The notes beneath the pieces were generated by a model that was given only the letters and a program-made list of their open reading frames with translations, searched no databases and was not told where the DNA came from. Made by a program: the position numbers and the translations under genes. A DNA stretch of 38,840 nt from Okeania sp. KiyG1. Its GTDB lineage: Bacteria > Cyanobacteriota > Cyanobacteriia > Cyanobacteriales > Microcoleaceae. Positions 7,359-37,365 of this stretch are shown here, piece by piece (positions within the stretch are counted from its first letter, which is position 1; each line of letters opens with the position of its first letter). The DNA lies in assembly GCF_014132355.1 (NCBI RefSeq), contig NZ_BLZO01000138.1, positions 1-38,840 of the forward strand, in the 5' to 3' direction.

Positions 7359-8275
7359 AGCAATACTACTAAAAAAGCTATTCTTAGTCGTTGACGTAAA
7401 ACTTTATTTATTTCTAACTGGGAGCGTTGTTTTTCTTCTTTAAGTTCATTTTCTTGGCTAGCAGTTAAGAATTTATAGTCTTTATTACTTAAACTTTTAT
7501 TTGTTGCCCATAGTTGAGCATCTTGTAATGCTTGACCTCTTAATAATCGAGATTTATCTTGATAATTAGAAGTCAACCAAGCTGTTATTGCTTCGGAATA
7601 GGGGCGTAATTTTTCTAGCTCTTGTTCTATCCATTCTAAGTTAAATACTTCTTGATAGATGCGATTATAAACTCTTAATTTATTACCTCGTTTTACTACT
7701 AATCCTGATAAGCATAATTGGGTTTGTTCAACACTGGAATCAGTATCAATTTCTCCCTTATTTAAAATTTGTTGATAAAGTCCTAATAATCTATTAGCTG
7801 TTTGTTCATCCTTCAGGAGGCGATCGCTAATTGTTCTTAAATGTTGTGGTTCATCAATTGATTGCCAATTTTCAATTATTTTTTGTCTGACTAAATTTTC
7901 TACAAAAGCAGTCTCAGAATAATTTATGTTTTTTTCTACTATCTTATTCCCAGATGTTACAGTGTTTTTTGTGTCTGTATTTAATCCTCCATCGTTATTT
8001 TCAACTAATTCTATATCTTTTCTTTCTAGTGAAGATTGAGGTGAATATAACTGAATCAACCGACAAACTTTTTGAGTTAAAAATGGCTGTCCTCCTGTCC
8101 AATCCAAAACTGCTGACATTACTGCCTCAGAATCATTAATTTTTCCTGTTAAGCCTAAAGTTAATGGTTGAATTTCATTTATTTGAAAACCTGTTAGTTC
8201 AATTGCTCGACCAATATTAAAAGGAGTACGTTGTTTATCCCTAATTAAATCTGAAGGGGTGGCAACTCCCATCAT
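7337..8275 (-). CDS. Central part of the AAA-like domain of the same protein (frame-shifted)
   Basis: Open reading in this frame extends upstream to 8434 and includes the Walker B-like IVIFVDEVDS, so the ATG at 8275 (MMGVATPSDLIRDKQ) is internal. The segment continues the AAA_35-type domain (TPFNIGRAIELTGF, DWTGGQPFLTQKVCRLI), then a helical linker (LLRGQALQDAQLWA) and the first half of a membrane helix (RIAFLVVLLWLFLLF), where the frame ends. The neighbours on both sides are the missing parts of the same protein. The breaks are at T-runs 8454-8459 and 8420-8424 and A-run 7371-7376. One added base in each restores one continuous frame. Confidence 0.8.
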   Translation of the reverse strand: MMGVATPSDLIRDKQRTPFNIGRAIELTGFQINEIQPLTLGLTGKINDSEAVMSAVLDWTGGQPFLTQKVCRLIQLYSPQSSLERKDIELVENNDGGLNTDTKNTVTSGNKIVEKNINYSETAFVENLVRQKIIENWQSIDEPQHLRTISDRLLKDEQTANRLLGLYQQILNKGEIDTDSSVEQTQLCLSGLVVKRGNKLRVYNRIYQEVFNLEWIEQELEKLRPYSEAITAWLTSNYQDKSRLLRGQALQDAQLWATNKSLSNKDYKFLTASQENELKEEKQRSQLEINKVLRQRLRIAFLVVLLWLFLLF

Positions 8276-8423
8276 TACAAATGTTATTCGTTCATATTGT
8301 GGTTGATTTGCTCGTCTATTATTGAAATTTCTAATAACAGCAAAAAAATCGTCAGCACTAAAAGGTAAATTTAATATACTATCAACTTCATCAACAAAAA
8401 TTACTATTTTTTGAGAAACTTTT

Positions 8424-8813
8424 TCAAGAGGAAATCATTGATAAAATTGTCAATTTTTTGACTGGAGATAAAAATATATCTTGAGTATTCCACCAACTGT
8501 CGATATCAAAAATATCGTCTAAATTTAAACTACTAACAATACTATCAATTATTCCAGCATACCATTGTTCATTAGTAATTTCAAAAGTACCAATCCCTGT
8601 CAAATCTACACTAGCACAAAGAATATCTTCTGCTTGTAATCTTTGAATTGTTCTAACTCTCAAACTTGATTTACCCATTTGTCGGGAGTTTAGTACAAAA
8701 CAAAACTCACCTGCTTTAATTGCTTGATAAAGCTCTTCGTCAGCTTTTCGTTTAACATAACTAGGAGCATCATTGGGTAAACAGCCACCTAAATGATATT
8801 GGTAATTATTCAT
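8424..8813 (-). CDS. N-terminal part of the AAA-like (AAA_35) domain protein (frame-shifted)
   Basis: The 5' piece of the gene that continues to 5553. It has the typical family opening: [40 protein letters not shown] and [14 protein letters not shown], the P-loop being SRQMGKSS. It carries on to [15 protein letters not shown], after which the frame is lost. Adding one base at 8454-8459 gives [13 protein letters not shown], and one more at 8420-8424 gives VSQKIVIFVDEVDS. These proteins bind nucleotide through the AAA-like domain and are thought to act as regulated switches. The ATG at 8813 matches the family start. Confidence 0.85.
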
Positions 8814-9026
8814 AAAAAATTAGGGGATAGCTACTTTTTCTTATTTTTTGTCATATTTTTTTACGGAAAAATTCAGGTATAATACCAATTTTATAAATTT
8901 TGCTACAAATAATTTTCTAGGTTTTAGGTGGTAGGTGGTAGGTGTTAGGTAATAGGTACTAGGTTTTAAGTTTTAGGTGAATTATTAGTTATTTACTAGC
9001 CAGTTTATTTGTAACATTATTTTTTA

Positions 9027-9209
9027 GTAAGCATTCAGCGGTCAGCAATCAGCAATCAGCTATTGCTTTTAGTTTACTATAAAAGCCTTATTAATTGTCT
9101 AACTACAAAAGTTGGCTCCCTTACTCTTAAAGTCTATATTAATTTAAACACTGTCTTTTAGAAGAGAGTTTTGTTGCTGATAGCTGACAGCTAATAGCTG
9201 AATGCTTAC
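9027..9209. repeat. GTAAGC-ended MITE with 8-bp target duplication
   Basis: GTAAGCATTCAGC at 9027-9039 is inverted at 9197-9209. The 8-mer ATTTTTTA flanks both sides (9019-9026 and 9210-9217). The interior holds GTCAGCAATCAGC-type repeats. The same family lies at 30755-30957 in opposite orientation, with relics at 20696 and 19936. No coding capacity. Confidence 0.85.
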
Positions 9210-9220
9210 ATTTTTTAAAT

Positions 9221-9265
9221 TTGGTATAAAGCCTCTCCATTCATGGAGAAAAAAGAAAAAAAATC
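9221..9265 (+). repeat. tnpB-type left-end hairpin, interrupted by a MITE
   Basis: TTGGTATAAAGCC is followed by a hairpin with arms TCTCCAT/ATGGAGA (9234-9249), matching the tnpB-element left end. The sequence just after it is split by the element at 9266-9382. Confidence 0.55.
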
Positions 9266-9382
9266 GGGTGCATCTCAATGCGTGAATAAAGCCAAAATTT
9301 TATTGCTTTAGGGAACAGGGAATAGGGAACAGGGAATAGGGAATATATAGGAAAAAGTATTTTTGCAAATATGAGATGCACC
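9266..9382. repeat. MITE with 9-bp target duplication, carrying a GGGAATA minisatellite
   Basis: GGTGCATCTCA (9267-9277) is inverted at 9372-9382. AAAAAAATC flanks it directly on both sides (9257-9265 and 9383-9391). Inside are repeats of GGGAACA/GGGAATA. The remainder of 8814-9896 has GGTAGGTG repeats (8926-8962), GATAATT repeats (9430-9452) and CACCTAACACCTA repeats (9806-9824), but no gene. Confidence 0.85.
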
Positions 9383-9452
9383 AAAAAAATCTTTGATCCA
9401 ATCCTCTTTTTATAAGAAGATTTCAATAATTGATAATTGATAATTGATAATT

Positions 9453-9546
9453 ACCTCTCCCTAAAACGGATAGGATTGAATAAAAGGAAAATTAATTCAT
9501 TGTTTCTCCTTTAAAGGAGAGGCTTTAAACCTTAATTATTCGGTAA
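9453..9546 (-). repeat. Hairpin MITE related to the tnpB-element left end
   Basis: On the minus strand it starts TTAC then CGAATAATTAAGG, followed by TTTAAAGCC and the perfect 16-bp palindrome TCTCCTTTAAAGGAGA (9505-9520). The far end is CTATCCGTTTT then GGGAGAGGT. A close second copy lies at 12102-12198. Confidence 0.75.
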
Positions 9547-9896
9547 TTCTAAATTCTTAATTCTAAATTGTTGAATAAAACTCTGTCTATAACCCTATAA
9601 TATTAATAGACATCTCCAGAAAAGAGGGAGTAGGGAGTAGGGGGGAAAATTGAGAATTTATGTGGGATAATTGATTTTATTTTTATTCTTGGAGATGTCT
9701 AATCGAAACCAATTAATTAATACCAAATTCAAGAAAGATTGTTACAGTAAAATCCGGGCGTCAAAGGATTGAAAAATTGGCACTTGTTCTCTCTCATAAC
9801 TAACACCTAACACCTAACACCTAGAAATCAACCACTGTAGCAATATTTCATGAAAATGGTATAACTGATAATCATCTCACAAAAGTTGAATCGAAA

Positions 9897-10892
9897 ATGT
9901 CTACAAACCTCTGGACTCGTCGTCATATTTTATCTCTAGCAGAATTTACACCCGCTGAATACAATATTGTACTACAAACAGCAGCCAGTTTTCAAGAAGT
10001 TTTAGGCCGCCGGATGAAGAAAGTACCTGCATTACAAGGTCTAGTAGTAGCAAACTTATTCTTTGAACCCTCCACACGCACCCGCAATAGTTTTGAACTA
10101 GCTGCTAAACGTTTGTCTGCGGATACTCTAAATTTTGCCCCTGGTACCTCTTCTCTGAGTAAAGGAGAAACTATCCTAGATACAGCAATGACCTATCTAG
10201 CAATGGGTACAGATATGATGGTCATTCGACATCGTGATGCAGGAGTTCCCGCAGCGATCGCTTCGGCAATGGATCGCAATGGTTCTGGAGTGCGAATTCT
10301 GAATGCTGGAGATGGTCAACATGAACATCCTTCTCAAGCTTTACTTGACCTATTTACTATCTGTATGTTGTTAGATTCAACTCAACCTAGAATAGAACTT
10401 TTAGAGGGAAAAAAAATTGCTATTGTCGGAGATATCCTCCACTCTAGAGTAGCACGATCTAATATTTGGAGTTTGACAGCTTCTGGTGCCGAAGTACATT
10501 TAGCTGGAACACCTACTTTACTACCTAAATATTTCACCGAATTTGGCAAAAATAGACCGAGTAAATTATTTGTACATTGGGATATTAAACCAGCTCTAGA
10601 AAAAGCTGATTTTGTAATGACCCTACGTCTCCAAAAAGAAAGGATGAGCGAATCTTTATTACCTAGTTTACGGGAATATCATCAATTATTTGGTATTACA
10701 CGCGATCGCCTCAAACTTTGTCAACCAGGAGTCAAATTATTACATCCTGGACCTGTTAACCGAGGAGTAGAAATTAGTTCTGACTTAATGGATGACCCCC
10801 AGTTAAGTTTAATTTCTCAACAAGTCACCAGTGGTATTGCTGTAAGAATGGCTTTACTATATCTTTTAGGTGGAAGCAAAACAGAATCTTGA
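9897..10892 (+). CDS. pyrB: Aspartate carbamoyltransferase catalytic subunit
   Basis: 331 residues, full length. It joins carbamoyl phosphate to L-aspartate, giving N-carbamoyl-L-aspartate, the first committed step of pyrimidine synthesis, in the cytoplasm. The carbamoyl-phosphate loop [19 protein letters not shown] is present, with the SLSKGET loop, [14 protein letters not shown] and, near the C-terminus, [13 protein letters not shown]. The ATG at 9897 matches the family start (WTRRHILSL follows closely). The gene stands alone, with no pyrI nearby, as usual in cyanobacteria. The frame crosses an A8 run near 10412 intact, which matters for judging the frameshifts elsewhere in this window. Confidence 0.98.
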
Positions 10893-10972
10893 ATATAACA
10901 ATTATCACATCGGTGAGTTACAAAATTATAGGTTTTATATCATGTATCTTGAAATACCCACAATAAAAATTT

Positions 10973-11119
10973 GGCGTTGCTGAATACTGGGATGATTTCG
11001 GCGCTCCACGGGGACACGGGGACACGGGGACACGGGGACACGGGGACACGGGGACACGGGGACACGGGGATTATGGTTTATGCTCTGGTGACAAAATCAT
11101 CCCGCAATTATACAATGCC
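10973..11119. repeat. MITE enclosing an 8-bp GGGGACAC minisatellite
   Basis: Imperfect inverted ends: GGCGTTGCTGAAT and GGGATGATTT on the left (10973-10998) pair with AAATCATCCC and AATGCC on the right (11093-11119). About eight copies of ACGGGGAC fill 11008-11070. The rest of 10893-11548 holds a GGGAATA/GGGAACA tract (11128-11176) and AT-rich DNA with no gene; moaE's promoter probably lies at its end. Confidence 0.7.
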
Positions 11120-11548
11120 CTAAATTTTAGGGAATAGGGAATAGGGAACAGGGAATAGGGAACAAGGAACAGGGAGAAATTTATCAGAGAAAACATTTTT
11201 ATCCTTGGCTAATTAATGAAACTTGATATTAGATAATAATAAATAATAACATTTTAAAAAAGAATGTTACGAATAATAAGTGCTATTACAATACTTTATA
11301 TGAAATGTCTATTTGACGAAAAAGATAATTTACTAGATAAAAAATAGTATTAAATTTATTTATTCTGAATTTTGACTCCTGACTTATAAGAAATACCCTA
11401 GCTATTTATAGCAAACATTTATAAATATAGCTTCAGAATCAAAATAATAAATAATTTTTTTACTCTTGAATTATTCTCTAAAAATATGGAAATTTTGCTA
11501 GGATTAATATAGTTATTAAATTACTGGAAACCAATTATTACTGATAAT

Positions 11549-12031
11549 ATGAATTCTAGTTTAAAAGTACCCTTATCTACCAAACTCAAACCAGAACAAA
11601 ATCATTTTGCTATTACCATAGCTCCTTTATGTATTGCTGAAATCTACACTTTAGCCGATAATCCTGCTAATGGTGCTGTAGTAGTAATGAGTGGAATGGT
11701 TCGCAATCAAACAGACGGTAAATCTGTAGTGGCCTTAGAATATCAAGCATATCAACCTATGGCCATCAAAGTTTTTGAGCAAATTTCCAGAGAAATTCGT
11801 ACTCAATGGCCAGAAGTTGAGACTGTAGTCATTCATCATCGAGTGGGACGTTTAAAAATTGGTGAAATCAGCGTGTTAGTGGCCATTGGTTGTCCACACC
11901 GTTCAGAAGCTTTTGAAGCTTGCCGTTATGGCATTGATACTTTGAAACATACAGCTCCTATATGGAAAAAAGAACATTGGGCCGATGGGTCGAGTAGTTG
12001 GGTCAGTATTGGAGCTTGTGAAGAGCAATAG
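11549..12031 (+). CDS. moaE: Molybdopterin synthase catalytic subunit MoaE
   Basis: 160 residues. MoaE, with the sulfur-carrying MoaD, converts precursor Z (cyclic pyranopterin monophosphate) into molybdopterin. Visible family motifs are GAVVVMSGMVRNQTDGKSV, LEYQAYQPMA, VVIHHRVGRLKIGEISVLVA, HRSEAFEACRYGIDTLK, and the PIWKKEHW segment carrying active-site lysines. The first 20 or so residues are a poorly conserved extension. No other molybdenum cofactor gene is adjacent. Confidence 0.97.
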   Translation: MNSSLKVPLSTKLKPEQNHFAITIAPLCIAEIYTLADNPANGAVVVMSGMVRNQTDGKSVVALEYQAYQPMAIKVFEQISREIRTQWPEVETVVIHHRVGRLKIGEISVLVAIGCPHRSEAFEACRYGIDTLKHTAPIWKKEHWADGSSSWVSIGACEEQ

Positions 12032-12101
12032 ATACAATTAATAATTAATAATTAATAATTAATAATTAATAATTACCTCTCCTTGAATTAATAATTAACA
12101 A

Positions 12102-12198
12102 TTACCTCTCCTTGAAAACGGATAGGATTGACTAATCATGAAAATTTTTGCTTGTTTCTCCTTTAAAGGAGAGGATTTTTACCTTAATTATTCGGTAA
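12102..12198 (-). repeat. Hairpin MITE, second copy
   Basis: Same build as 9453-9546. The minus strand begins TTACCGAATAATTAAGG and carries the perfect palindrome TCTCCTTTAAAGGAGA (12157-12172), ending with CTATCCGTTTT and AAGGAGAGGT. AATTAAT repeats lie before it (12036-12074). It sits just upstream of the sigma-factor promoter. Confidence 0.75.
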
Positions 12199-12209
12199 AG
12201 CCAAGAATG

Positions 12210-12236
12210 GGAACTCTAGAAAAAATTTCTCGTCTT
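12210..12236 (+). promoter_or_regulatory. Candidate ECF-sigma promoter (autoregulation)
   Basis: GGAAC at 12210-12214, then 16 bases, then CGTCTT at 12231. This fits the GGAAC/CGTC pattern and spacing of many ECF promoters, about 50 bases before the sigma-factor start. It is inferred from pattern only. Confidence 0.4.
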
Positions 12237-12285
12237 TAGATAGGAATCAAAGCTAAATAACAAAATTATTGAGCCAGTTCCCCTG

Positions 12286-14275: not shown

Positions 14276-16356
14276 AACCCACATTCCGCACGACAAAATG
14301 TAGTATACAAAGAGGGTAAAACTTGAGTAAGTATTTAGACTTATAGTATGGGTAAGAAGCGATGTAGCTGCCGCACTTGCTCCGCCAACGCAAATCAATA
14401 GAATGTTATAAGTTGCCAGAACTCACCAATATACCAATTCAAAAATTGCCAAAGTTCCTCTATCACGCTAAGCGTGATAGCTGCCGCACTTGCTCCCTCC
14501 GCCAACGCGTTTGCGCAGCATTCGGTAGGAAAGCGGAACGGAGTTCTATCGCACTAATTGCCAAGGGGTTTATTCTACTACTATTCAATCATTGATGATT
14601 TTGGCCTTCTACCTCTTTTCATCTCAAGTTTCTCAACTGAGTAGATAGTATCTTTGACAACTAGGAGGAAAAAACTTCAATAATTCGCGCACGCTCATAA
14701 GTGAGATTAGATATACTCTTAACTCCAGAATTAATCAATAAATGAATCGACTGAAAACACTGAAATATCCAATGGTTTTGTTGGTCTATTAGTAGGGCGA
14801 CCTAGTTGATTTTTTACAGTAGATTTAGTTCGGTTTAAAGTTTGAGGTAATTGACGCTGGCAATCACGTGTAAACCAATAAACATCAACCCATAATTAGT
14901 CCCAAAGCTTCGATTCGACGGGGAGATTTAAGGAAGACACTATCAGTTAAAAATAGAGGGTATGCCCAGAAACCTGAAACCTCTTTCAACTGATTGTTGT
15001 CCTTGATATTTAGACAACATTTCTTAATCAAGTTAATTCGATCTTATCCAGGACATTTGTTGCTAATATAAATCGACCTGCTCGTTTCTTTTCTAGTTGG
15101 ATTTTTGACTCTCTTAAGCCCACTTGAACTTGGAGTTGATCAGGAAAATCCGTATCAGATTTTGACTCTACGAATTGAACGTTAATTTCTGTCAATTCGT
15201 GGTCTAAAAACCTTTTTAATAGCTTTCTTGTTGCTGTTTCTGCATCTGATACACAAGCAAATTTTTCAGATTTTAAAGAGCCCAGTTTTTTGTCAACTTC
15301 AGCTCGTTCTTTCTGGATTTTTTTCTCTAGACTTTTCAAATCCGATTCTCGGCGCTGTTGAGTTTCAACTACTAACCATCTTTGTTGAATCCCTCCCTAG
15401 GTTTTTGAGAGTTCTTGATAGCTATATCCTTTAAGCTCACTGGGATTCAAATCCGCACTATCTACTTCTTCAACTAGCTTCTGCGCTGCTTTTATACGAA
15501 CCGAAACTCGGCTTAACCATCTAATATTTGTTAGTAACTGTAGATTTTCTTGGGTAGATCAAGCACTATCTGCCACCATGAAACTATCAAATTTTAACTG
15601 ATTTTTAAACTCTTTCATGGCTTGCACAAATTGTTTTTGGCTGCTATTCATTTCCCGACCCAATTCTCATCCACAATGGCACATCTCCATCGTTTGTACA
15701 AATTAAATCGCTCATAAATTGTTTTAAGACTGTCAATTATCTTATGAATATCCATAAGTGATGCGCGATAGTTTTTGGCTCTAAATCTTCTTCATATTCA
15801 TCTTCATCTGTGTGTTCATCTCCATGAACATGAAACGAAGTAGAATCTAGGTGGACTGTATTTGTTTCTAATTGATAAATTTTCACTGCTTCGCTCCACC
15901 ACAGACATAAAAATCTCATTTAATCCTCTGCGATACATTTGGTCTAATACCAGACCTAATTTATCATCATTAAAATACTCTGTTTTCACAGCTTTTCCAA
16001 TTAAGTGTTCTATTGCTTTTCCATCAAAAAATTGACTAAATAAATATAGTGGAGATGAAACCTTACCTAACCCATTTAAGAGCATTCCTTTGACTACTTG
16101 ACCCCCTGTTATTTTTTCTGGTAGCTCAACTCCAGCGTAATTGATTAATTTTCTCTTCTATACCAATCTCATCAATAATTCCTGCTACTAAACCTAGATG
16201 GTCTACATTAGTCACTTCTATTGACATTTTCTCCTCTTTTTTTGCTCTTTACCTGAGGTCTATAATTACACTTTGAGGTTTTTTTTGAGATGTCTCAATA
16301 CTTACTCAAGTTTTACCCTCTTTGTATACTACATTTTGTCCTGCGGAATGTGGGTT
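14276..16356 (-). mobile_element. Degenerate IS1634-family insertion sequence
   Basis: About 2,080 bases with long inverted ends. The left end, beginning AACCCACATTCCGCA at 14276, is matched in reverse at 16342-16356, and the match runs on for about 55 bases with a single mismatch. The transposase inside lies on the minus strand and is broken. Between the left end and the transposase 3' end (14346-14600) are extra short repeats: AGCTGCCGCACTTGCTCC twice, a TATCACGC/GCGTGATA palindrome at 14461-14479, and a dispersed TGCTGCGCAAAC module. No clear target duplication was seen. Confidence 0.85.
14650..16227 (-). pseudogene. IS1634-family transposase, multiply frame-shifted
   Basis: It begins MSIEVTNVDHLGLVAGIIDE at 16227. 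Pieces in different frames follow: GQVVKGMLLNGLGKVSSPLY, LETNTVHLDSTSFHVHGD, then the mid region FACVSDAETATRKLLKRFL and RAGRFILATNVLD. The last piece is a C-terminal stretch around FLTDSVFLKSP and ALGLIMG, ending near LTYERARI. These are the landmarks of IS1634-type (DDE) transposases. Several frameshifts and stops break it, and not all are at homopolymers, so this is genuine decay. The 3' boundary is approximate. Confidence 0.8.
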
Positions 16357-18601: not shown

Positions 18602-19671
18602 ATGAATCAAACTGCAAGTAATTATAAATTTATTCAAGATTTAATTAATTATAACTTTTATGCTGAAGCTCAAGCTAGTTGGAATGTTAATAATTTAATT
18701 TATGACTTAGAAAAATTAGAGAACAATACCCGCCAATAGGAGAAGGTTTAACCAAATTTCACAAGCAGTATTTATTAATGGTATTAGTAGGGAAACAACT
18801 TCCGGATATGGTGGCTGAACTGGAAGATATTTCATCAGTTGATTCTCTCAGGACTAAACTAAGTAATGATAAAAGAAAAAAAGGTATTCATTTTTGCTTA
18901 CAAAAATTGCTGAAACAAGAAATTGGTAATCCTCAAGATATCATTTTTCATTTATTTAATTCTCAATATAGAAAGCAACCTCAACCTCCTAATTTTGAAA
19001 AAGAAAGAAGTTTATTAATTAGAATACCCGATGATGTTTCAGCAAAACAATTGTTAGAAATTGAGAACAAAGTGAGGGCGATAACAGGATGTCCTTATCT
19101 TAGGGTAGTGGAAATTAAAATGGGTAGTATAATTTTGCATTTAAAAGGTTCTCAATCTGCTTGCGAGCAAATAGAATCTTTGCACCAACAAGGTTTACTT
19201 TCAGATAGATTAGGTGTTCCTATTATAGATGTAGAAATCATGCCTAGTCAGGTTAATTTAACTCAATGGTTTGAGTATATTTTGACATCTGGATGGCAAG
19301 GAGCAAATGAATTATTAACTCCTTCACAATTAGCATTAGTTAGAAGTGCAGAAATTAAAGCTGGAAAGTTAATTGATTTACGAGCAAATATGTTAAGTCA
19401 TGCTGTAGTTTTATTGGTCAATTTAAGACGAGAAGATGATGATCTTCCTGAAGTAGAAATAACTTTACGGGTTTATCCCACTAGGGATAATGTTTATCTT
19501 CCTCCTAATTTGAAATTGATTGTTTTAAGTGAAAATGAAGTTTTTCAAGAAGTTACTGCTAGAAGTGAAGATAGGATTATTCAATGTAAATTTGCAGGAG
19601 AAGTAGGGGAAGAATTTACGGTAAAATTAGTGTTAGATGAAGCCGTAATTACGGAGGATTTTGTTATTTAA
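18602..19671 (+). CDS. DUF1822 family protein (one frameshift)
   Basis: The C-terminal two thirds match cyanobacterial DUF1822 proteins: WFEYILTSGWQGANELLTP, SAEIKAGKLIDLRANMLSHA, VEITLRVYPTRDNVYLPPNL and the closing DEAVITEDFVI. The first 45 codons start at ATG 18602 (MNQTASNYKFIQDLINYNFY) and end at a TAG at 18737. One extra base near 18730 would join them to YPPIGEGLTKFHKQYLLMVL and on into the main frame, whose first internal ATG is at 18778. The N-terminal part (about 1-150) is helical and unlike usual DUF1822 starts; it may be an interaction domain. The gene is followed 24 bases later by xisH-xisI. Function is unknown. Confidence 0.75.
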
Positions 19672-19695: not shown

Positions 19696-20137
19696 ATGCC
19701 AGCTAAAGACTTTTTCATCATGCTGTTACATCAGCTTTAATCAAAGATGGTTGGAAAATTACGGACGATCCTCTATTTATTAAGCCTAGCACTAAAATAT
19801 CTTTATACATTGATATAGGTGGCGAACGAGCTATTGGTGCAGAAAAAGATGGTCAAATAATAGCAGTAGAAATTAAAAGTTTTTTGTCAATGTCACCCTT
19901 GGCAGAATTTCATACTGCTCTTGGTCAATTTCTTAGTAAGCATTTCCTCCGGAATGCTGCGCAAACAGCCGTCAGCTATTAGCTATCAGCTATCCCGATG
20001 CAACAGCTACAAGGTACTGATAACTGATAACTGATAACTGAAATGACTCTTTTATTAAACTTTCTGTAAGTACCTATCAAGTTAAATTATTAATTTTCGA
20101 TCCTTTAGAAGAGGTAATTGTTTTATGGAGCGATTAA
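19696..20137 (+). pseudogene. xisH: xisH interrupted by a miniature element
   Basis: The start MPAKDFFHHAV (needing one more T in the run at 19711-19715), LYIDIGGER and AVEIKSF are clear XisH. The D...ExK pattern is that of the PD-(D/E)XK nuclease fold. After FHTALGQFL (19935) the frame enters GTAAGCATTTCC, the end of a MITE family seen at 9027 and 30755, and stops about 16 codons later. XisH sequence resumes near 20063 (SVSTYQVKLLIFDPLEEVIV) and ends at 20137, overlapping the xisI start. About 30 codons are missing. XisH and XisI were named for control of fdxN-element excision in Anabaena, but most pairs have no such element nearby. Confidence 0.85.
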
Positions 20138-20598: not shown

Positions 20599-21389
20599 AG
20601 TGCTTATGCAAAATTAATTGTATATTCTGTGCCAAAGTTTTTCGTATGGATTTTCTACTGCACTAAAAAACTCATATAACTCTCATAAGCTTCTAGTAAG
20701 CATTTCCTTGCTTACAGCTTCTATTTCTCACCATTTAAGTGCTTATGCAAAATTAATTACCTGTTCTGTTGATTCCCTATTTAAAATCCAGAAGTTGCGA
20801 TCGCTTTCTTCTATGACCAAAATTAAAAACAGTTTCCCGCAAGAACGCAAAAGTATAAGTAAAAAAATATAATCAACTATTATTATTTTTTCTGCTTATA
20901 AAAAAATCTCTGATTTCGGCTAATTGTTACAAAATATTTCACGTACTTGCGTTATTTCAGCGATTTGGTATCATATGGATACATAGTTTATTGTGCCAAT
21001 TTTGTATTTAAAAATAAGAAATTTTCCCTAGAAAAAGCTACAACCTTCTATTTTTCGTCAATATAGGATGCAAAAATTTATACCCTTTCTACGGATGAAT
21101 AAATCTCAAAAAACTAATTTTGAACAGGTGTCGGTGCTTAAGAAATTATAACTATTGACAAATTTGTTCTGATAGTATCCAAAAATTGAAGGGTAGAGGC
21201 AGGCAGAAATTTTTGATTTGCTTGTAGCACTATAATTCAAGCTGACCAATACGAAAAATTTAATTTGAAGGGATTCACCTGAAATCCTAATTATTAAAAT
21301 ATACAATTACAGCGCTTTCCGTTGTTATGAGGTACGGTAGCAGCACTTAGCAAACCAGTTTTTTAAATGTTGAGGATTCATTAACTTAC
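20599..21389. other. Intergenic region without a convincing gene
   Basis: It holds a 22-bp direct repeat (AAGTGCTTATGCAAAATTAA and two more bases) at 20598-20619 and 20737-20758. An 84-codon frame (20618-20872) runs across the 20-bp palindrome at 20696 and is not convincing. The rest, to the tnpB element, is AT-rich and I see nothing definite. Confidence 0.5.
20696..20715. repeat. 20-bp palindromic mini-insert with 8-bp target duplication
   Basis: GTAAGCATTTCCTTGCTTAC is only the two ends of the GTAAGC MITE family with 8 bases between. AGCTTCTA flanks it exactly on both sides (20688-20695 and 20716-20723), so it was inserted by transposition or is a deleted insert. Confidence 0.75.
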
Positions 21390-21487
21390 CAAAAAATTGG
21401 GTTTAAAGCCTCACCCTTCTATGGCGACTTTTTAGTTGATTTGATTTCAATAAATATGTTATCATACTGTTAGTTCAGATAGGAATT

Positions 21488-22740
21488 ATGAAAGCTAGAT
21501 TTAAGTATCGTATCTATCCAACACCGGGACAAAAATACCGAGAGCGCAAAGCTATTTGGTTGTGTGCGTGTGGTTTGGAATGATAGCCTAGCTTGTTGTC
21601 AAGAAAAGTATAGATCGGGAGAAAAGAAACCCAATAATTCTCAACTACAAAAAAAGTTTATCACGCAATCTAAAAAGACTGAAGACAGAGAATGGTTATC
21701 AGAAGTTTCTGCTATACCATTGCAGCAATCATTGAATGATTTAAACCGTAGGGGCAAACGGCCGTTTGCCCCTACAAACTTTTTTAAATCGACTAAAGGT
21801 CAGAGAAAAGGTAGACCAATTAAACCTCCTAAATTTAAAAGTAGAAAGTCAAAGCAAACTGCTAGGTTTACACTCGTGAGGATTTAAAGTTGGTCAACAT
21901 AAAGTTTATTTGGCTAAGATAGGAAAGCTGAAAATAGTTTGGTCAAGAGAGTTACCTGCTCCTCCATCATCAGTAACAGTAATCAAAGACGTAGGGGCGA
22001 ACGGCCGTTCGCCCCTACATAGATATTTCTTGAGTTTTGTAGTAGAAATACAACCAGAAATCTTACCTCAAACTGATAATTCAGTAGGTATAGATTTAGG
22101 CATATCTACCTTTGCTACATTTAGTGATGGTACAAAGGTTGATGCTCCTAAACCACTTAAGAAACGAATTAAGAAGTTAAGAAAGTTAAGTAAGTCATTA
22201 TCTCATAAAACCAAAGGGTCTAAAAGGTATGAAAAAGCAAGACTAAGAGTTGCTAAGTTTTCCTACGGAATGCTGCGCAAACATGCCAAACTGAAAGATA
22301 CGCTTGACAGATTTTCTACATAAATTATCTACTAAAATAATTCGTGAAAACCAAACAGTTGTTTTAGAAGTATAACAACGTTTCTGGAATGGTTAAAAAC
22401 CGTAAATTATCCAGAGCCATATCAGATTTAGGTTGGAGACAATTCCGGACATTCTTAGAAGGAAAAGCAGAAAAATATGGTCGCGATTTTAGAGTAATTA
22501 GTCGCCCTTGAACCTACTTCTCAAATTTGCTCAAATTGTGGCTTTAAAGGTGGCAAGCTAGACCTTAAGGTGCGAGAATGGGAGTGTCTCAACTGCGGTG
22601 CAAAACATGATAGAGATGAGAATGCAGCGATAAATATATTAGTTGCGGGCGGGCAGTCCGAGACATTAAACGGACGTGGAGGTAAGCGTAAGACTAGCGT
22701 CAAGGTAGCAGCAGCCAGTGTTAGCGGCAGCTATGCGAAG
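21488..22740 (+). pseudogene. tnpB: Decayed TnpB with two palindromic inserts
   Basis: Starts MKARFKYRIYPTPGQKY, then loses frame at once relative to the copy at 38164. Pieces continue in other frames: REWLSEVSAIPLQQSLNDLN, the RuvC-I region SVGIDLGISTFATFSDG, a spoiled RuvC-II (VVLE then a stop), GRDFRVISR, and the zinc ribbon CSNCG/CLNCG with [14 protein letters not shown]. Two 28-bp perfect palindromes (arms GTAGGGGCAAACGG and GTAGGGGCGAACGG) sit at 21748-21775 and 21991-22018. A further 21-base in-frame insert, TCCTACGGAATGCTGCGC plus three bases, lies near 22261. TnpB is the RNA-guided nuclease ancestor of Cas12; this copy cannot make it. The 3' limit is approximate. Confidence 0.85.
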
Positions 22741-22948: not shown

Positions 22949-25900
22949 ATGGGAAAGTTAGTTACTCTCAATATTGATGGCGGGTTTCACGAGGGTTTTT
23001 CGGTGCGGGGTGAAATTTGGCAAGATGTAGATTCGATAAAAAATGAACCTAATTTAGCGATCGCTAGTAAGTCAGCACATTTACCTCCACATTTAGAAAT
23101 CTTAGAGCAGTATCGTCATTGGCAAAGTTTATATACAAATTTAGATGTCTTTTTTCTAATCGTTTAAAATCTAAAGCAGGTTTTACTAATATTTCTGATA
23201 ATGATAAAAATGGAGCTTTTGCAGGTTGTAAAAAGGCAGCTACTTTATTATCCAAAACTTTCAATACTTGGTTTGGTTCCTCCGATTTTCAACCGATAGA
23301 AATTTTGCTTCGGAATTATTTAGATAAATCGGAAAGTACGAGAATTTTATTGACAACTGAAAATTATGGTTTACGACGTTTGCCTTGGCATGAATGGAAT
23401 TTTTTAAAGGATTTTCCGAAGGCTGAAATTGCTCTAGCTACTCCTAATTTTCAACGAGTTGATACGACTAAAAATTTAGACAAAAAGATAAGATAAAAAT
23501 TTTAGTTATTTTGGGAGATGATGCGGGGACTGATGCTGATGAAAAGGTGATTCGGGAATTAATTCCTGATGCAGAAATTTGTTGGTTAATAGAACCTCAA
23601 CGTACAGAATTAGATGAACCTTTATGGCAACAATCTTGGGATATTTTATTTTTTGCTGGTCATGGCAAGACGAAAGATAATGGGAGTATTGGTACGATTC
23701 AAATTAATGCTCAAGATGTTTTGACTATTTCTGAAATAAAAAATCATCTTCTACAAGCTGTTAAGTCTGGTTTAAAGTTGGCAATTTTTAATGCTTGTGA
23801 TGGTTTAGGTTTGGCTTATCAATTGGCAGAAGGTGAGGATTTACATTTACCGCAAATTATTGTGATGCGGGAAAATTTGCCTGTAGTTATTGCTCCAAAG
23901 TTTCTCCAATATTTTCTAGAAAATTATACTCAAGGTTTATCTTTATATAGTTCTTTGCGGGAGAGTCGCCAGAGGTTACAAATATTAGAAAAGGATTTTC
24001 CCTGTGTCAGTTGGTTGCCTGTTTTATGTCAAAATCCTGCGGAAATTCCTCCCCGTTGGTGGGAGTTGGGAGGAAAAATTCAGATATCTCCCTATAAAGG
24101 ATTGAGTGCTTTTACTGAAAATGATACAGAAATATTTTTTGGCAGGAAAGTGTTGACTAATTCTTTATTGGAAAAGGTGGCAAGGCAAAATTTGGTAGCT
24201 ATTATTGGTGCTTCGGGTAGTGGGAAATCTTCCTTGGTTGCTGCTGGTTTAATTCCTCAATGGTTGGCTCAAGCTACGGAAATTTTACCCCATTTTGTCG
24301 TGAAAATTCGTCCTGGTTTTCCTCAATGGAGTTTACTCCTAATGGCAAAGAAATTTTAATAGGAGATAGTTCTGGTGTAGTGCATTTTTGGAACTTAGAA
24401 ACTTGGGAAAAAATTAGAGAATTTAAAGCCAATACTAATCAAATTACTAAAATAGCTGTTAGTCCTGATGGAAAGCAAATATTAACTTTAGGAGTTGATA
24501 TTAATTCAGATAAAACTCCTGGCCTTGCAGCAAAGCTTTGGGATTTATCAGGTAAACCAATTGCAGATATTGATTTTTTCCAAAACACTATAGGTTTTCT
24601 TGGTGATGTTAGTTTTAGCCCCAATGGTAAAGAAATTGCTATAGTAATCACAAAAAACCAGGGTACATTCAAATTTTATGATTCTAGCTCTGGAAAGCTC
24701 ATCCCTCGAAGTACAACAAACAGTCTTTCAGGCTTTAACTTCAGTTACAGTCCTGATAGTAAAACAATTGCTTTTAATGGGTTATCGGGCATTAAATTGC
24801 TAAATTACAAAGCTAAATCAGATTTTATAGAATTGCCTGCTGACTATGAAAAGGAAATCAACCAAATGAAACAAAAAGGTTTTATTGATTTGCAGTATAG
24901 CGCAGATGGTAAAAAATTATTGTAATCAATAAAGATTATGGTAAGAATTATGTAGATATTTGGGATTGGCAAGAAAAAGAAAAAAGAAGAATTAATGTTG
25001 GTAATCGTAATTTTGCCAGCATAACTCCTGATGGAAAATTTATAATTATTGTTACTAGAAAAAGCATTCAAAAATTTGATTTAGAAGGTAATTTAATTCC
25101 TGAACTAAAAGCAAGTATTGGTCCAGAGGAAAAAGTTTTGCACTCTTGGTCTGCTGGCACATACATTGGTCATAGATACTATAACTCAAGTTTAGATGGC
25201 AGCACAATAGCTACAATTGGATTTTTTACTATGGGGCAACCCCCCCTGCGCTTCTGGGATTTATCAACCCAGCAAGTCAAGCAGTTTAAAAACAATTTTG
25301 GTTATTTGCGCCAAGTATTAGTTAGTCCAAACGGCAAATATATTTTGACTATTTCAACAGATTTAGTAACTAAACTTTGGGATACCTCTGGTAATTTGCT
25401 CTATCCGCTAGATGTTGATGCAAAACACTCCTCAAATCAAGAGGAAGTTTCAATGCTAGCTATTGTACCAGGTTCAATAAAGAAAACCATTTCGGGTAGT
25501 TATGAAGTACACATACTTGATGTTTTCCAAAATTCTACAGCAATGAAAGCAGGTTTGAGAAGTGGTGACGTAATTGAGGCAATAGATGGTCAAGAAATTC
25601 CTAACAATTTAAGTGACGTATTTAAATTGCTCATGGGAGAACCTGGTACTCCTGTAAAAATTAACTTTATGAGTTCTGAGCGTGGTTTTGAAAGGCAGGA
25701 AAAACAATTCTTAGAGAAAAATTTGTTTATGATATAACCAATTTATCGCTTTTTGCTGCAGAAGGGATAAAATTTAGCCCTGATAGTCAATATTTGGCAA
25801 TGTGGAAAGGGAGCAATTTATCCTTAAGAAACATAAAAACTAACAAACTGGTTGAAATCAATAATCCAGAGGAGATTATCACTGTTGATTTCAGTCCTGA

Positions 25901-26300
25901 TAGTAAACTTTTAGCAGTAACTAATACAGATAATTCAATCAGAATTTGGGATTTTTCTGGAAATTTAGTTAATGAAATTAAGCTGCTACAAGTTCCTTCT
26001 AGGATAGCTTTTAGTCCTGATAGTCAGCAAATTGCAGTTTTAGACCCCAATGAATTCACCATCTGGACTCTTGACGGAAAACAAATTGCTAAACATACAA
26101 TTCCCGAAGAAAATCAAGGTAAAATAGTCTTTTCCCCCGATGGTAAATATATAGCAACTGGTCAAAGCAAAGTATTTATTTGGCAGAATAAAAACTTAAA
26201 CGAACTATTAGCAACAGGATGCGATTGGTTGCAAGAATATTTAACTACTCGCCCCCAAGAAAAAGAGAAATTAAAAGTGTGTCAAGAAGAAGTCAAATAG
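22949..26300 (+). pseudogene. CHAT-STAND-WD40 protein with inserted PDZ domain (frame-shifted, internal deletion)
   Basis: Starts [19 protein letters not shown] at 22949 after AGGAGC. A CHAT caspase-like domain shows the catalytic His in ILFFAGHGKTKDNGSIG and Cys in AIFNACDGLGLAYQL, then ISPYKGLSAF and a STAND P-loop, AIIGASGSGKSSLVAAGL. After KIRPGFP (about 24320) the text jumps straight to WD40 repeats (FTPNGKEILIGDSSGVVHFW), so most of the NTPase is missing and the frame changes. A PDZ domain (FQNSTAMKAGLRSGDVIEAI, LLMGEPGTPVKINFM) sits between WD40 blocks, and the tail NLNELLATGCDWLQEYLTTR is typical. Other breaks are one-base shortages at 23150-23155, 23482-23486, 24911-24916 and 25717-25721. 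The intact type would be a sensor that activates a protease, probably in conflict or cell-death signalling (inference). Confidence 0.85.
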
Positions 26301-26661: not shown

Positions 26662-26674
26662 TTATCAATTAACT

Positions 26675-27044
26675 ATGACTCAAATAGAATTAAAAAATCA
26701 CCCCGTTTGGCAAGATTTAACAGAAGTAATAGAAAATTTAGATGCTAACTCTTTAGTGAGAGAACATCTAGAATTATGCGATTATAAAATCTGCGGTTAT
26801 TGGGATGAAGAAGATAAATATTATGAAGAAATTATCTTGCCTCGTTCCCTATCTGCTGAGTTAGTTAGTAACTCAATTGGTGTTACCAATAAAAACGTTG
26901 GATTAAATTAAAATTTTTCTCAAAGCTAATGATATAGCTGCACAAAATCTGGGAGAACTAACTATAATTTATGATGAAAATCTACAATTTTTAGATGAAA
27001 ATTGGCAGATAAATATTGACTCTATTTTGGCTTATCAACTATGA
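26675..27044 (+). CDS. Hypothetical acidic protein (two probable one-base shortages)
   Basis: Begins MTQIELKNHPVWQDLTEVIE and, as read, ends after 78 codons at GVTNKNVGLN. Adding one A to the run 26891-26895 and one T to 26914-26918 continues it as KRWIKLKFFLKANDIAAQNL, then ELTIIYDENLQFLDENWQIN, to a TGA at 27042-27044. That gives about 123 residues. The protein is acidic, has no membrane segment, and includes CGYWDEEDKYYEEI. The family is not recognised. It closely follows the 102-residue frame and precedes the DUF433 gene by 55 bases. Confidence 0.5.
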
Positions 27045-27098
27045 TATAGAACTTAGCTTTGATAATATAATCAAGACAAATTCATAATAAATCTCAAA

Positions 27099-32154: not shown

Positions 32155-32238
32155 GGGTTTGCTTATGGAAAGTCTTTTTGCTGGGATAGGGACCCACCCC
32201 TAACCCCTCCCAGGAGGGGAAAAAGGGACCCACCCCTA

Positions 32239-32404
32239 ATATAGAATCCGGTTGAATAGTTATTGTATAGTTGGGAGTAGGGGACCCACCCCTACTGCTC
32301 CCAGGAGGGGAAGAGGGGAGTGGGGAGTGTGGGAGTAGGGGAGATTAAAGGTTTAAAGTAATTTAAGAAATTATCAACATATACTATATAACCGGATTCT
32401 ATAT
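32239..32404. repeat. MITE with ATATAGAATCCGGTT ends, enclosing G-rich minisatellite
   Basis: ATATAGAATCCGGTT (32239-32253) is inverted exactly at 32390-32404. Between are GGGAGTAGGGG repeats and a CTCCC/GGGAG hairpin. CCCCTCCCAGGAGGGG hairpins also lie outside it, at 32203 and 32403. The rest of 31777-32496 has no gene. Confidence 0.75.
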
Positions 32405-32496
32405 AACCCCTCCCAGGAGCGGAAAAAGGCAGTAGGCAGTAGTTAGGACGTAGAATAAATGGGAATTACAAAGTCAGTGGCCCAAAGAGTTGAAAA

Positions 32497-33362
32497 TTAG
32501 CCAATTTCCGCCGTCATACTAATAACTGTTTCCACAGTTTTACCCGGTTCAGCAATTAATAAACTTTCCCCAGTATTCATAGCATTACGAGGTGCAGTCC
32601 AAGGTTCTAAACAATAAAAATCTTTACCTTTCACAGTCCAAAAAACCAGAGTAGAGTAATTACTATCGTAGTTAATAGTTAACTTTAAATTACGACTTTT
32701 ATCAGTAACTACTGCGGACTGCTTCGACAAATTTACAAAAGCCCAATCAATTTCTTCGGCATTAAAATCAAACTCTCCAGAAAAAGTATTAACAGTTGGT
32801 TCACCCTTAAGTTTATATTCATTTGAAGGTAAATCAAATTCTAATTGACTCTTATCATTCACAGCAAAATAAGGATGAATTCCTGTAGCAAATGGCATAG
32901 GTTTCTGAGATAAATTCGTGTGAGAATATCGCATCTCTAGAGTATTACCCCGCAATATATAGGTATAATTCAACTCAAAATTAAATGGATATACTGCCCG
33001 AGTTTCATCACTGCTGCGGAGAGTCACAGTAATACTTGCGCCATTCTCGGTAGACTGTTGTGTAACTTCCCAAGGAAGGGTACGAGCAAAACCATGTTGC
33101 TTGATTTTGTAGCTTTCTCCATCTAACGTATAGGTATCGTCAACCACGTTGCCACAAATAGGGAACAATAGAGGAATGCCACCGCGCACCGAAAGAGTGG
33201 GGTCAGCAAAACGTTCCTTATCCATATAAAATATTTTTGGTCTTGAGTACGCCAGTCAGTAATAATGCCACCTCGTTCGGGAACAACTACGACTAAAGAC
33301 TGAGTGGTCTCATCAGAAAGGATATAGGGTTGATTTTGATTTTGTCCAACATTAGCAGGCAT
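32497..33362 (-). CDS. Aldose 1-epimerase-like enzyme (one frameshift)
   Basis: About 288 residues if the T-run 33234-33238 gains one base. The first part (MPANVGQNQNQPYILSDETT, VPERGGIITDWRTQDQ) then joins IFYMDKERFADPTLSVRGGI, PLLFPICGN, KQHGFARTLPWEV. Later come TGIHPYFAV with the conserved His, and CLEPWTAPRNAMN with the acidic residue. The fold is that of galactose mutarotase, which interconverts alpha and beta sugar anomers; this branch also includes glucose-6-phosphate 1-epimerases, so the sugar is uncertain. Read literally, only 242 residues from 33225 are made, lacking the first strands. Confidence 0.85.
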
Positions 33363-33439
33363 AGATAATTCACCTAAAACAACTGCTATTAAGGTCTCAC
33401 AGAATAGTCTGAAAAACTATTCATTTTGGACATAATGTG

Positions 33440-33776
33440 GAATTTAAAGTCAAAAGTCAAAAGTCAAAAGTTAAAAGTTAAAAGTGATATTCTATATCAA
33501 ATACGCTTAATTCGGTATCAAAAAATGTTCCATCTTCTCATCTCCCCATTCACTAAAGTCAAAAGTCAAAAGTCAAAAGTTAAAAGTGATATTTTATATC
33601 AAATCCGCTTAATTCCGTATCAAAAAATATTCCATCTCCCCATCTCCCCATCTCCCTATCTCCCCATCTCCCTATCTCCCCATCTCCCCATCTCCCTATC
33701 TCCCCATCTCCCTATCTCCCCATCTCCCCATCTCCCCATCTCCCTATCTCCCCATCTCCCTATCTTCCCATCTCCT
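33440..33776. repeat. AAAGTCAA and CCCCATCT repeat block
   Basis: Two segments beginning AAAGTCAAAAGTC (33448 and 33555) each lead into ATATCAAATCCGCTTAATTC or a close variant, the left-end type of the element at 5323. From about 33630 to 33776 come 8-base units CCCCATCT/CCCTATCT, which run up to the last codons of sasA. The long open frame across it is not a gene. Confidence 0.85.
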
Positions 33777-35022
33777 CACCGATAAACTGGTAAAGTAAAC
33801 TTAAAACAACTACCATGATTAGGGTTAGACTCTACCCAAATTTTGCCGTAGTGGGATAAAATAATCCTCTGACATAGAGCTAGACCAATACCATAACCTT
33901 CTTTTGACTCATCACGCTTGAGCCTAAAACTATCTTCAAAAATACGGCCGTGATTTTCTTTAGGAATGCCAGGGCCACTATCACAAATTGTTACTTGAAT
34001 CTTTTGAGTAGTGCGATCGAGAATTAAAACCTGTATTTTTCCTTGTTTAGGAGTATACTTAATGGCATTATCCAGCAAATTAACTATTACCTGACGTATT
34101 CTTTCTCGGTCGGCATAAACTAACGGTAAATCACTAGGAATATCCTTTTTCAACTGCAAATCTTTTGACTTAAGTCGGTCTCGAAAACTAATTATCACCT
34201 CGCTACACAATGCCCCCAAATCTAATTTTTCAGGCTGAATTTGTAACCGCGTACTTTTGCCTCTTGGCCTCTCCAGAATATCTATAATCATTTTGTCGAT
34301 CGTGCGAACTTGGTAACGTGCCTGCTTAATTAGCCTTTCCACAAGAGTTGGAGACCTTCTGGGAACCTCACTATTAGCCGTTTTTTGAGTTGATTCTAAA
34401 GTCTCTAAAGCCAAAGAAACTGCTGTCAGAGGGTTGCGTAAGTCGTGAGCCAACATTGCCACAATACGGTCTTTAAATCTTAGTTGAGCTTGAAGTTGTT
34501 CTTTCTCCTGTTTGAGACGAAAAATCTCATCTGACATTTGCATTAATTCCGCAGCACAGTCGATGGAACTAACAGATAATTTTTGATTAACAACCTGTTT
34601 AGACTGAGGCTGAGAGTTATGAGTGTGCCAATATTCGGCGATAGAACGTTGCCAGCGTGGCCACCAATATTCCAATTTGGCAATTAAATCTGTACCAGTT
34701 AGGGTTTGTCTCGGTTCAGGATAAATTTTGAGTAGGGCAGGAGTAGCAATTAACTTGAAATGCTCTGCCATATAGGGTTGTTCTTCTACGTCAATGACTT
34801 GAAATTCAAAGGGATAATCATAATCTTTTTTAAATTGTTGAGAGACTTACGAATGGCTTGAATTTGCTGTTGAGAGCCAGGACGTTTATTGATAAACAAT
34901 AAAATCTGTAAACATCCCTGCTCATTATTATTATTAGATTTTTCTGAAGACACCTGTACAAAATCTCTAGGTAAGTGGGATAGGCTATTAGCATCTCTTT
35001 TGCAAATAGAATAATTTACCAT
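33776..35022 (-). CDS. sasA: SasA, KaiC-interacting histidine kinase (one frameshift)
   Basis: Full protein of about 415 residues if the T-run 34826-34831 gains one base. The N-terminal piece has the KaiB-like thioredoxin-fold sensor (LQILLFINKRPGSQQQIQAI, then DYDYPFEFQVIDVEEQPY), which continues as MAEHFKLIATPALLKIYPEP and LEYWWPRWQ. The kinase shows the H box (MLAHDLRNPLTAVSLALE), N box (NLLDNAIKYTP), G1 (DSGPGIP), F (RIFEDSF) and G2 (GYGIGLALCQ). SasA is stimulated by KaiC and phosphorylates RpaA, passing clock time to gene expression. As read, the kinase piece begins at 34771 without the sensor domain. Loss of sasA would be surprising, which argues for a sequence error. Confidence 0.93.
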
Positions 35023-35256
35023 TTAGTAGTAATCCATATTGAATATTCCCGCCTACCTAGATACTTGGCCCGATAGTGTAAGCGGGGCGGGGTTTACCAC
35101 TTACGATTAAAAAACAAAATGTTGAATTTTATATTTTTCTATTAATGGCCTATAAAATAAAATTTGTTTCTGAGATAATTTAATATCTATTTCATATTGT
35201 GACACTAATACTTTAAATTCGCCTTCTAGAGTGTATCGAGATTATCTAATGCTTAC

Positions 35257-35285
35257 TTGACATAATTGATACTTTATAGTATGTA
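35257..35285 (+). promoter_or_regulatory. Candidate sigma-70 type promoter with structured leader
   Basis: TTGACA (35257-35262), 17 bases, TATGTA (35280-35285). Just after it CTTACCAG (35299-35306) is inverted at 35339-35346 (CTGGTAAG), enclosing an ATG (35315) that opens a 20-codon frame ending at 35377. No larger gene follows. It may be a small RNA or the start of a lost gene divergent to sasA. Confidence 0.35.
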
Positions 35286-35420
35286 AACACAGATAAATCT
35301 TACCAGTGGTTATAATGACTCAAACGAGGGATAATTTTCTGGTAAGTGGTATACTGCAAGCTTCAATTTTATGGTAGTTAGAGGTTTGCTAAGGATACTC
35401 TGATGACTTTGTGCCTCATT

Positions 35421-35552
35421 TATAGCGCTGTGCGCAGGCAACAGCTCCGGAAAGCAACAGCTCCGGAAGGGGGAATAAAAACTGATAATATAAGACTTTT
35501 AGCTATTGGACAGTTCTTGTAATTTGTAAATATGCCAGCGCACATTGCTATA
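35421..35552. repeat. TATAGC-ended MITE, reverse copy of 20470
   Basis: TATAGCGCTGTGCGC at the left and GCGCACATTGCTATA at the right. Large parts are the reverse complement of 20470-20598 (TAAGACTTTTAGCTATTGG, TTTGTAAATATGCCAGCGC). Confidence 0.8.
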
Positions 35553-35567
35553 ATCTAAAATTTTTTT

Positions 35568-35696
35568 TATAGCGCTACGCATTAATGTGTTTGACATTTC
35601 TAAACCCTGTTAGCGGAGCATTTGAGCACCGAAAACCCTTTAACAATTTACTATTCCCCATTCCCTATTCCCTATTCCCTAGCACGTAGTGCTATA
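35568..35696. repeat. TATAGC-ended MITE with CCCTATT repeats
   Basis: TATAGCGCTACGC pairs with CACGTAGTGCTATA at the right end. CCCTATTCCCTATT repeats lie inside (35651-35680). It sits 15 bases after the previous MITE and 32 bases before the DUF2079 gene, so it may affect that gene's promoter. The remainder of 35023-35420 has no clear gene. Confidence 0.75.
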
Positions 35697-35728
35697 AAAT
35701 TTAATTTTGAAATATTACTATAAAGTGG

Positions 35729-37365
35729 ATGAAGTTGGTTAGCTGGCAAAAAAATCAGTCCCTCAGAATGGTGCTTGTGGTGGCGATCGCCTTCTTTGTT
35801 CTCTGTCTATTATTTAATCTGCATCGCTATTATAGTTTTTACGCTTCCTACGACCAGGGTATATTTAACCAAGTCTTTTGGAATAATATACACGGTCGTT
35901 TTTTCAAAGTTCTCTCTCTTCTGCTCTTTCCACAAATGTAGTTCACCAAGGCCAAATACCAGAAGTATACTATCACCGCTTAGGCCAACATTTTACTCCA
36001 GCTCTATTGCTGTGGTTGCCAATATATGCTCTATTTCCATATCCCATTACCCTAACAGTTTTACAAGTCACATTAGTTACTGGTGCTGGTTTAGTTTTAT
36101 ACATTTTAGCTAGGCACTATCTCCAGCCACCCTTATCAGCCATAATTACTATTAGCTTCTATTGTGCTAATGCAGTAATTGGCCCTACTCTCGCAAATTT
36201 CCATGATATTTGTCAGATACCTATATTTGTATTTAGCTTACTATTGGCAATGGAAAAACGCCGATGGTCTTTATTTTGGATTTTAGCAATATTAATTTTA
36301 GCAGTGAGAGAAGATGCGGGAGTAGTTTTATTTGGAGTAGGATTCTATCTAATTTTGAGTAAGCGCTACCCCAAAATAGGTTTAGCTATTTGTACTCTCA
36401 GTTTTGTTTATATGGTGGCTTTAACAAATCTGATTATGCCTATATTTTCCGAAGATATTTCCCAGAGATTTATGATGGAAAGATTCGGTCAATATGCGGA
36501 AGGAGAAGAAGCTTCTACTCTAGAAATAATTTGGGGTATGATTAGCAACCCTTGGCGTTTAATTGGAGAAATTTTTACCCCATTTTTTGGCACCATCAAA
36601 TATTTATTAGGTCAATGGTTGCCTTTAGCATTTGTGCCTGCTGTTGCTCCCGCTTCTTGGATGATCGCGGGGTTTCCTTTGTTAAAATTATTTTCTGCTC
36701 AAGGTTTGTCTGTACTGTCAATTACTATTCGCTACGCAATGACAGTAGTACCTGGATTATTTTATGGTGCAATTTTATGGTGGGGAAAGAGAGAATCAGA
36801 AGTTGAAAACTCACCACTGCCATCACTAAAGTTTCAGCGTTTCTGGGTAATTTGTCTTTGCTTATCTCTATTTTTTACCTTCACTTCTAATCCTAATCGT
36901 ACCTTCTATTTTTTAGTACCAGACTCAGTACAACCTTGGGTTTATGTACCTGCACATCAACAATGGCAACACGTTAGTCAAATGCGACCGTTGTTAGGGA
37001 AAATTCCTGATGATGCTAGTGTGGCAGCAACAACTTATATTATTCCTCACTTATCAGGTCGTCGAGCAATATTGCGGTTTCCCAGAATGCAATTTAGAAA
37101 TGATGCTAGAGAAGTTGAAAAAGTAGAATATATTATTGTTGACTTGTGGCGGTTGAATAGATATCGAGTAGCATTTAAGAGCGATCGGCAACGACTGGAA
37201 AAAATTGTACCTCGAATTGAGGATCTTTATAATTCTGGTGAATATGGAATTACTGGTTTTGCAGATGGTGTAGTTTTGATGGAAAAAGGAGTAGTTTCTA
37301 ATCCTGATGCGCTTGATGGATGGGAAAAATTCCGTCGAGAAATTGCTCAATTTTCTGATAAGTGA
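35729..37365 (+). CDS. DUF2079 family membrane protein (one frameshift)
   Basis: About 545 residues if the T-run 35899-35904 gains one base. MVLVVAIAFFVLCLLFNLHR and YASYDQGIFNQVFWNNIHGR then run on as FFQSSLSSALSTNVVHQGQI, PEVYYHRLGQHFTPALLLWL. Many membrane helices follow (LILAVREDAGVVLFGVGFYL, FAFVPAVAPASW-like text), and a C-terminal soluble part (VEYIIVDLWRLNRYRVAFK). The early YDQGIFNQ and GQHFTP motifs are DUF2079 marks. The family has a GT-C glycosyltransferase-like layout, but its reaction is not established. Read literally, the long frame starts at 36007 and lacks the first loop with the putative catalytic Asp. Confidence 0.87.

Follow-up and report, generated by a model that had tools for sequence, protein, structure and literature searches.

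One-base shortages in A/T runs of a contig from Okeania sp. KiyG1, probably residual Nanopore base-calling errors

Genes and frame breaks along the contig

The window analysed here is the whole of contig NZ_BLZO01000138.1 (C138; 38,840 nucleotides, nt) of Okeania sp. KiyG1, in which a series of genes, among them sasA, xisH and a large CHAT-nSTAND1-WD40 gene, lose their reading frame at short A/T runs. The assembly totals 10,982,302 bases in 198 contigs, and a second contig, C139, carries window positions 14278–38840 in reversed order (its positions 24564–1, 99.93% identity). A sequence-only reading of the window had listed 13 shortages of one base. We compared the affected loci with five congeners (G001–G005) and one family member outside the genus (G012), wherever these loci matched; of the six genomes, two gave no match for the AAA_35-WD40 gene, one each for sasA, the epimerase gene and the DUF1822 gene, and four for a short unknown gene, and these missing matches make no statement on gene absence. 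For each of the 13 listed breaks, comparison with the congener genes does show a frame change, equivalent in every case to the window lacking one base; an alignment gap of +2 is counted as equivalent to −1. Twelve of them are located at the named run or immediately next to it. The exception is 25717–25721, for which the true frame change is at 25700–25704. That all breaks lie in runs of 5–6 is true of the window's own letters, but the extra base of the congeners does not merely lengthen the run with its own letter at 7371, 8454, 19711, 24911 and 26914, nor, in some of the genomes, at 8420, 23150, 33234 and 34826. A similar break, at 18711–18715, had been overlooked.

The sasA gene (33776 to about 35020, reverse strand) breaks at 34826–34831, where five of five congeners are one base longer, C139 agrees with the window and G012 cannot be judged. 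Its 331-amino-acid (aa) piece contains KaiB, HisKA and HATPase_c, and the congener open reading frames (ORFs) span 415–418 aa (5/5). An aldose-1-epimerase-like gene beginning at 32497 on the same strand breaks at 33234–33238, where C139 and all five genomes compared are one base longer; Pfam Aldose_epim is matched from profile position 60 onward, and ORFs of 286–297 aa are present in all five. In the DUF2079 gene (35730–37365, forward strand; Pfam DUF2079), the run at 35899–35904 is T7 in C139 and in six of six genomes, all of which have ORFs of 530–556 aa. The named genomes that best match a DUF2079 protein of the window are those of Okeania, in a comparison that may not have included the window's own record.

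The AAA_35-WD40 gene (5553–8813, reverse strand) is broken three times, and its congener ORFs measure 1086–1096 aa in all four genomes with a match. At 7371–7376 the four matching congeners have one more base, a T within the run, and at 8420–8424 all four are one base longer, the Pfam AAA_35 match being divided there between two ORFs (profile positions 5–104 and 184–241). The third break, at 8454–8459, is −1 relative to three congeners and +2 relative to one; its missing base may lie in the A-run immediately to the left of this T-run. The overlooked break lies in a forward-strand gene with Pfam DUF1822 (18604–19671), where both congeners that could be compared have A6 at 18711–18715; ORFs of 311–356 aa occur in four genomes, 356 aa in the two congeners with A6; in G012, whose match is short, a 64-aa ORF spans just part of it. 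A short gene of unknown family (26674–27045, forward strand) breaks at 26891–26895 (A6 in 2/2 congeners) and again at 26914–26918 (2/2 congeners one base longer), with ORFs of 118 aa in G002 and of 95 aa in G001, the latter over 83% of the match.

Counted over five of the broken genes (for the CHAT gene, over its 5′ part only), the substitutions found in the window alone number 23, 15 and 68 at codon positions 1, 2 and 3, respectively. Their concentration at the third position shows that these genes had remained under constraint until recently and are not long dead. The breaks could still be real frameshift mutations in KiyG1 that mark recent pseudogenes, an explanation that we consider very improbable: sasA, the epimerase gene and the DUF2079 gene look intact in other respects and show the third-position bias, and two of the three have the longer run in C139.

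Two loci lend this explanation some support, the first of them xisH (start at 19696, forward strand), which breaks at 19711–19715, where three of three genomes are one base longer. Its frame then runs into a stop inside an insertion (19930–20040) common to KiyG1 and two congeners, G002 and G005, both of which carry the extra base; the insertion is in part a repeat that recurs at many places in these genomes, and G002 has an additional stop of its own. The xisH gene of G012 is uninterrupted (139 aa) and lacks the insertion, and the matches in G001 and G004 skip most of it. Since the stop-bearing insertion is shared with G002 and G005 and the gene is intact in G012, we conclude from these alignments that xisH is a true pseudogene in KiyG1, whatever the length of the run.

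The second locus is the CHAT-nSTAND1-WD40 gene (22949–26300, forward strand), whose frame changes at 23150–23155 (4/4 genomes one base longer), at 23482–23486 (A6 in 5/5 genomes), at 24911–24916 in the WD40 part (G004 and G002 one base longer; frame change relative to four congener proteins) and in the A-run at 25700–25704. The last of these lies upstream of the listed run 25717–25721, which we reject as the break site as it has the same length in G002, whose alignment with the window has no gap over 25700–25800. The gene has also lost about 1.83 kb within nSTAND1 at 24322–24332, as seen by comparison with G002 and G004, and this deletion is not a homopolymer event: matches that lie 3 nt apart in the window are separated by 1828 nt in G002 and by 1833 nt in G004. 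The frame changes at the junction too, which separates the start of nSTAND1 from the WD40 part and is identical in C139, and the nSTAND1 profile match ends at position 77 of 379. The deletion may be real or may be an artefact of multiple displacement amplification (MDA). ORFs for this gene are 1753 aa in G002 and 1811 aa in G001, are split into 727 and 924 aa in G004 and start late in G005 (1476 aa), and no long ORF was found over the 5′ part in G012, so that the gene is fragile in these relatives. The expectation that added bases would restore family-consistent proteins thus fails for two of the genes, as longer runs would remedy neither the insertion stop of xisH nor the internal deletion of the CHAT gene.

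The second copy and the join at 14278

In an alignment of 24,570 columns, the two assembled copies differ at four mismatches and 13 gaps of one base, and two of the mismatches (15210 and 15212) amount to an A-run that is one base longer and a T-run that is one base shorter in the window. At seven of the gaps the shorter side is the window, and at six it is C139. Congeners align at eight of the 13, and the longer version matches them in all eight, which indicates that both contigs err by loss. Among the ten listed runs within the shared stretch, C139 has the congener length at two (33234 and 35899) and is shorter than the window at 25717. At window position 23400 it is C139 that is broken, the length in the window agreeing with four of four genomes.

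The first base of the shared stretch coincides exactly with one end of a 2.08-kb element that has inverted ends (14278–16354); relatives of this element occur elsewhere in this genome and in congeners. To the right of the element stands the 6-base motif TTCAAT, which C139, unlike the window, also has to the left of it. The left flank of C139 adjoins the purB region in G004 and G005, in which the left flank of the window lies on another contig. Given the position of the element end, the one-sided TTCAAT and the synteny of the congeners, the window seems to result from a join made at 14278 via a copy of the element, either by the assembler or during MDA, making it a misjoin or a chimera of two loci. 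The overlap of C138 and C139 would then represent the same DNA.

The two contigs might instead be true genomic copies, a duplication of 24.6 kb that has diverged by indels, as their different left flanks could suggest; this would be compatible with any explanation of the breaks. We judge it unlikely; the data are better explained by a chimera formed during MDA or by an assembly misjoin at the element. Drift should produce mostly substitutions, yet 13 of the 17 differing columns are one-base gaps. The start of the shared stretch at the element end, the TTCAAT motif, which fits only the left flank of C139, and the congener synteny also speak against a duplication.

Two further segments, 21386–22665 and 38054–38840, are relatives of one repeated element, about 84–87% alike to the C139 copies, and both contigs end inside the latter. 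By eye, we take this element to be like an IS605-type OrfB gene.

Run length and break density

Congener run length served as a proxy for true run length, and runs within congener ORFs with matching flanking bases were scored for being one base short in the window. None of 199 runs of 4 and none of 55 runs of 5 were short, compared with four of 25 runs of 6 and three of seven runs of 7. The single run of 8 was not short, in agreement with the previous observation that an A8 run is in frame. With 0/254 for runs of 4–5 against 7/33 for runs of at least 6, the probability of error rises with run length. The corresponding count for two large contigs of this assembly was two of 83 runs of at least 6, one of them short by two bases (Fisher P = 0.002 versus the window), and between congeners there were none in 128 (Fisher P = 9 × 10⁻⁶ versus the window; locus L075 was excluded from this control as it overlaps L145).

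Uncompensated frame-breaking clusters numbered 14 in the 15,261 coding nt of the window that are covered by congeners. With identical settings, the two large contigs have eight in 64,303 nt (P = 6 × 10⁻⁶ versus the window), and a comparison of two congeners gave none in 51,054 nt (P = 1 × 10⁻⁹ versus the window); the rate tests assume independent sites, which is only roughly true. An earlier version of the test, without the cluster at 27072 and with other settings for the large contigs, gave 13 in 15,261 against seven in 61,259. Cluster 27072, seen in one congener only and outside the listed genes, is included in the count of 14 but is not taken to break any listed gene. The listed site 24911 falls outside the 14, as the congeners are too diverged there, and rests on separate alignments and frame analysis. 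At 35123, a further candidate, no frame-breaking cluster was found, and the congeners also differ there by substitutions.

Twelve of the 14 clusters are −1 in all genomes showing them; of the other two, that at 8452 is −1 in three genomes and +2 in one, and that at 25696 is +2, equivalent to −1 in frame, in the sole congener that covers it. The contention that the window shows losses and no gains is thus borne out. This prevalence of losses, which occur only at runs whose congener counterparts are long, is also evidence against real frameshift mutations, as is a break density that varies several-fold among contigs of one genome. Seven of the eight large-contig breaks were inspected and fall in other genes, several of them beside A/T runs.

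We also looked for a deficit of long runs in the window itself, a candidate signal that we rejected: A/T runs of 7 occur as often as in congener stretches, those of 8 are somewhat rarer (18 versus 24–33 per 100 kb), and the longest A/T run is 8. In the first 200 kb each of contigs C91 and C187 (loci L087–L106), there are 76 A/T runs of at least 8 in 400,000 nt, compared with 172 in 554,703 nt of congener stretches that are not homologous to them (P = 3 × 10⁻⁴), a hint of run shortening across the whole assembly.

Origin of the breaks and known systems

The KiyG1 draft genome was obtained from MDA-amplified single cells by Nanopore sequencing, assembly with Flye 2.7.1 and Pilon polishing, giving 198 contigs and 10,982,302 bp; the data comprise 116 to 145 Mbp of MiSeq reads (75 cycles) for each of four cells (SAMD00233784 to SAMD00233787) and 1.13 Gbp of Nanopore reads (SAMD00233788) (PMC7660993). 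The Pilon step was presumably fed with the 75-cycle MiSeq reads, as we read this paper, according to which the reads are public. Taken together, the Nanopore provenance, the second copy, the bases of the congeners and the dependence on run length support long-read homopolymer error, the explanation already preferred in the sequence-only reading. We put the probability at about 95% that the breaks are residual base-calling errors of the Nanopore assembly, present in the file and very probably not in the organism. No unusual biology is needed, because close relatives lack the breaks and the second copy lacks some of them. A/T runs of at least 6 would have been called one base short and left uncorrected, and short-read polishing was probably thin or ambiguous on C138: uneven MDA coverage, together with short reads that fit both contigs in the doubled stretch, would weaken polishing, although the doubling alone does not account for the three breaks at 7371–8459, in the unique part of the window. 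The living strain would accordingly carry the longer runs.

Several observations weigh against base-calling error. C139 has the same run length as the window at seven of the ten shared listed runs, and likewise at the true break at 25700, which favours real frameshifts; such agreement is expected if both contigs were assembled from the same reads, but these sites then have no internal witness. Both xisH and the CHAT gene are damaged in other ways, so that real frameshifts are possible there. One run of length 4 was short in the large contig C91 (1/350), and the eight large-contig clusters comprise six losses and two gains. Finally, for Flye drafts insertions outnumber deletions in the tables of the Homopolish paper (PMC8011154), which may weigh against losses, depending on the sense in which the terms are used there.

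A different explanation takes the frameshifts to be genomic and rescued by slippage of RNA polymerase or ribosomes on the runs. The position of the breaks in A/T runs of otherwise intact genes would suit it, and rescue of this kind is described for Buchnera and Blochmannia (PMC3017870). We nevertheless give it next to no weight. No readable congener alignment shares a listed break (G012 is unreadable at 34826), so the sister homologues broken in the same places that slippage on real frameshifts would have led one to look for were not seen, and C138 and C139 disagree on three of the ten shared listed runs. The runs are only 5–6 long, and measured transcription insertions grow exponentially with run length (PMC5574713). 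The CHAT gene would in addition require four rescues and a frame change at the deletion. It is just as hard to credit a narrower version, in which a subset of breaks common to both contigs, for example that of sasA at 34826, would be real and yield full-length protein through polymerase slippage, as a lineage-specific trait within Okeania. Slippage, if true, would carry a phenomenon of reduced endosymbiont genomes over to a free-living cyanobacterium with an 11-Mb genome; nothing here points there.

With base-calling error as the source, claims of gene absence, pseudogene counts and claims of slippage drawn from this assembly would be unsafe for genes such as sasA, above all on short, partly doubled contigs.

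Among known systems, the slippage cases of Blochmannia and Buchnera resemble the window in that frameshifts fall in poly(A) or poly(T) tracts of genes that are otherwise intact. They differ from it in that some of those frameshifts are conserved between species and the tracts reach 12, compared with runs of 5–6 here and breaks shared with no readable congener (PMC3017870). The long-read errors treated by Kastor (PMC12007338) and Homopolish (PMC8011154) are frame-shifting homopolymer indels detected against related genomes, as here, and the former links deletion errors to runs of two to eight, mainly of A and T (PMC12007338). A difference is that the errors here are concentrated in one contig, part of which is present twice in a Pilon-polished assembly.

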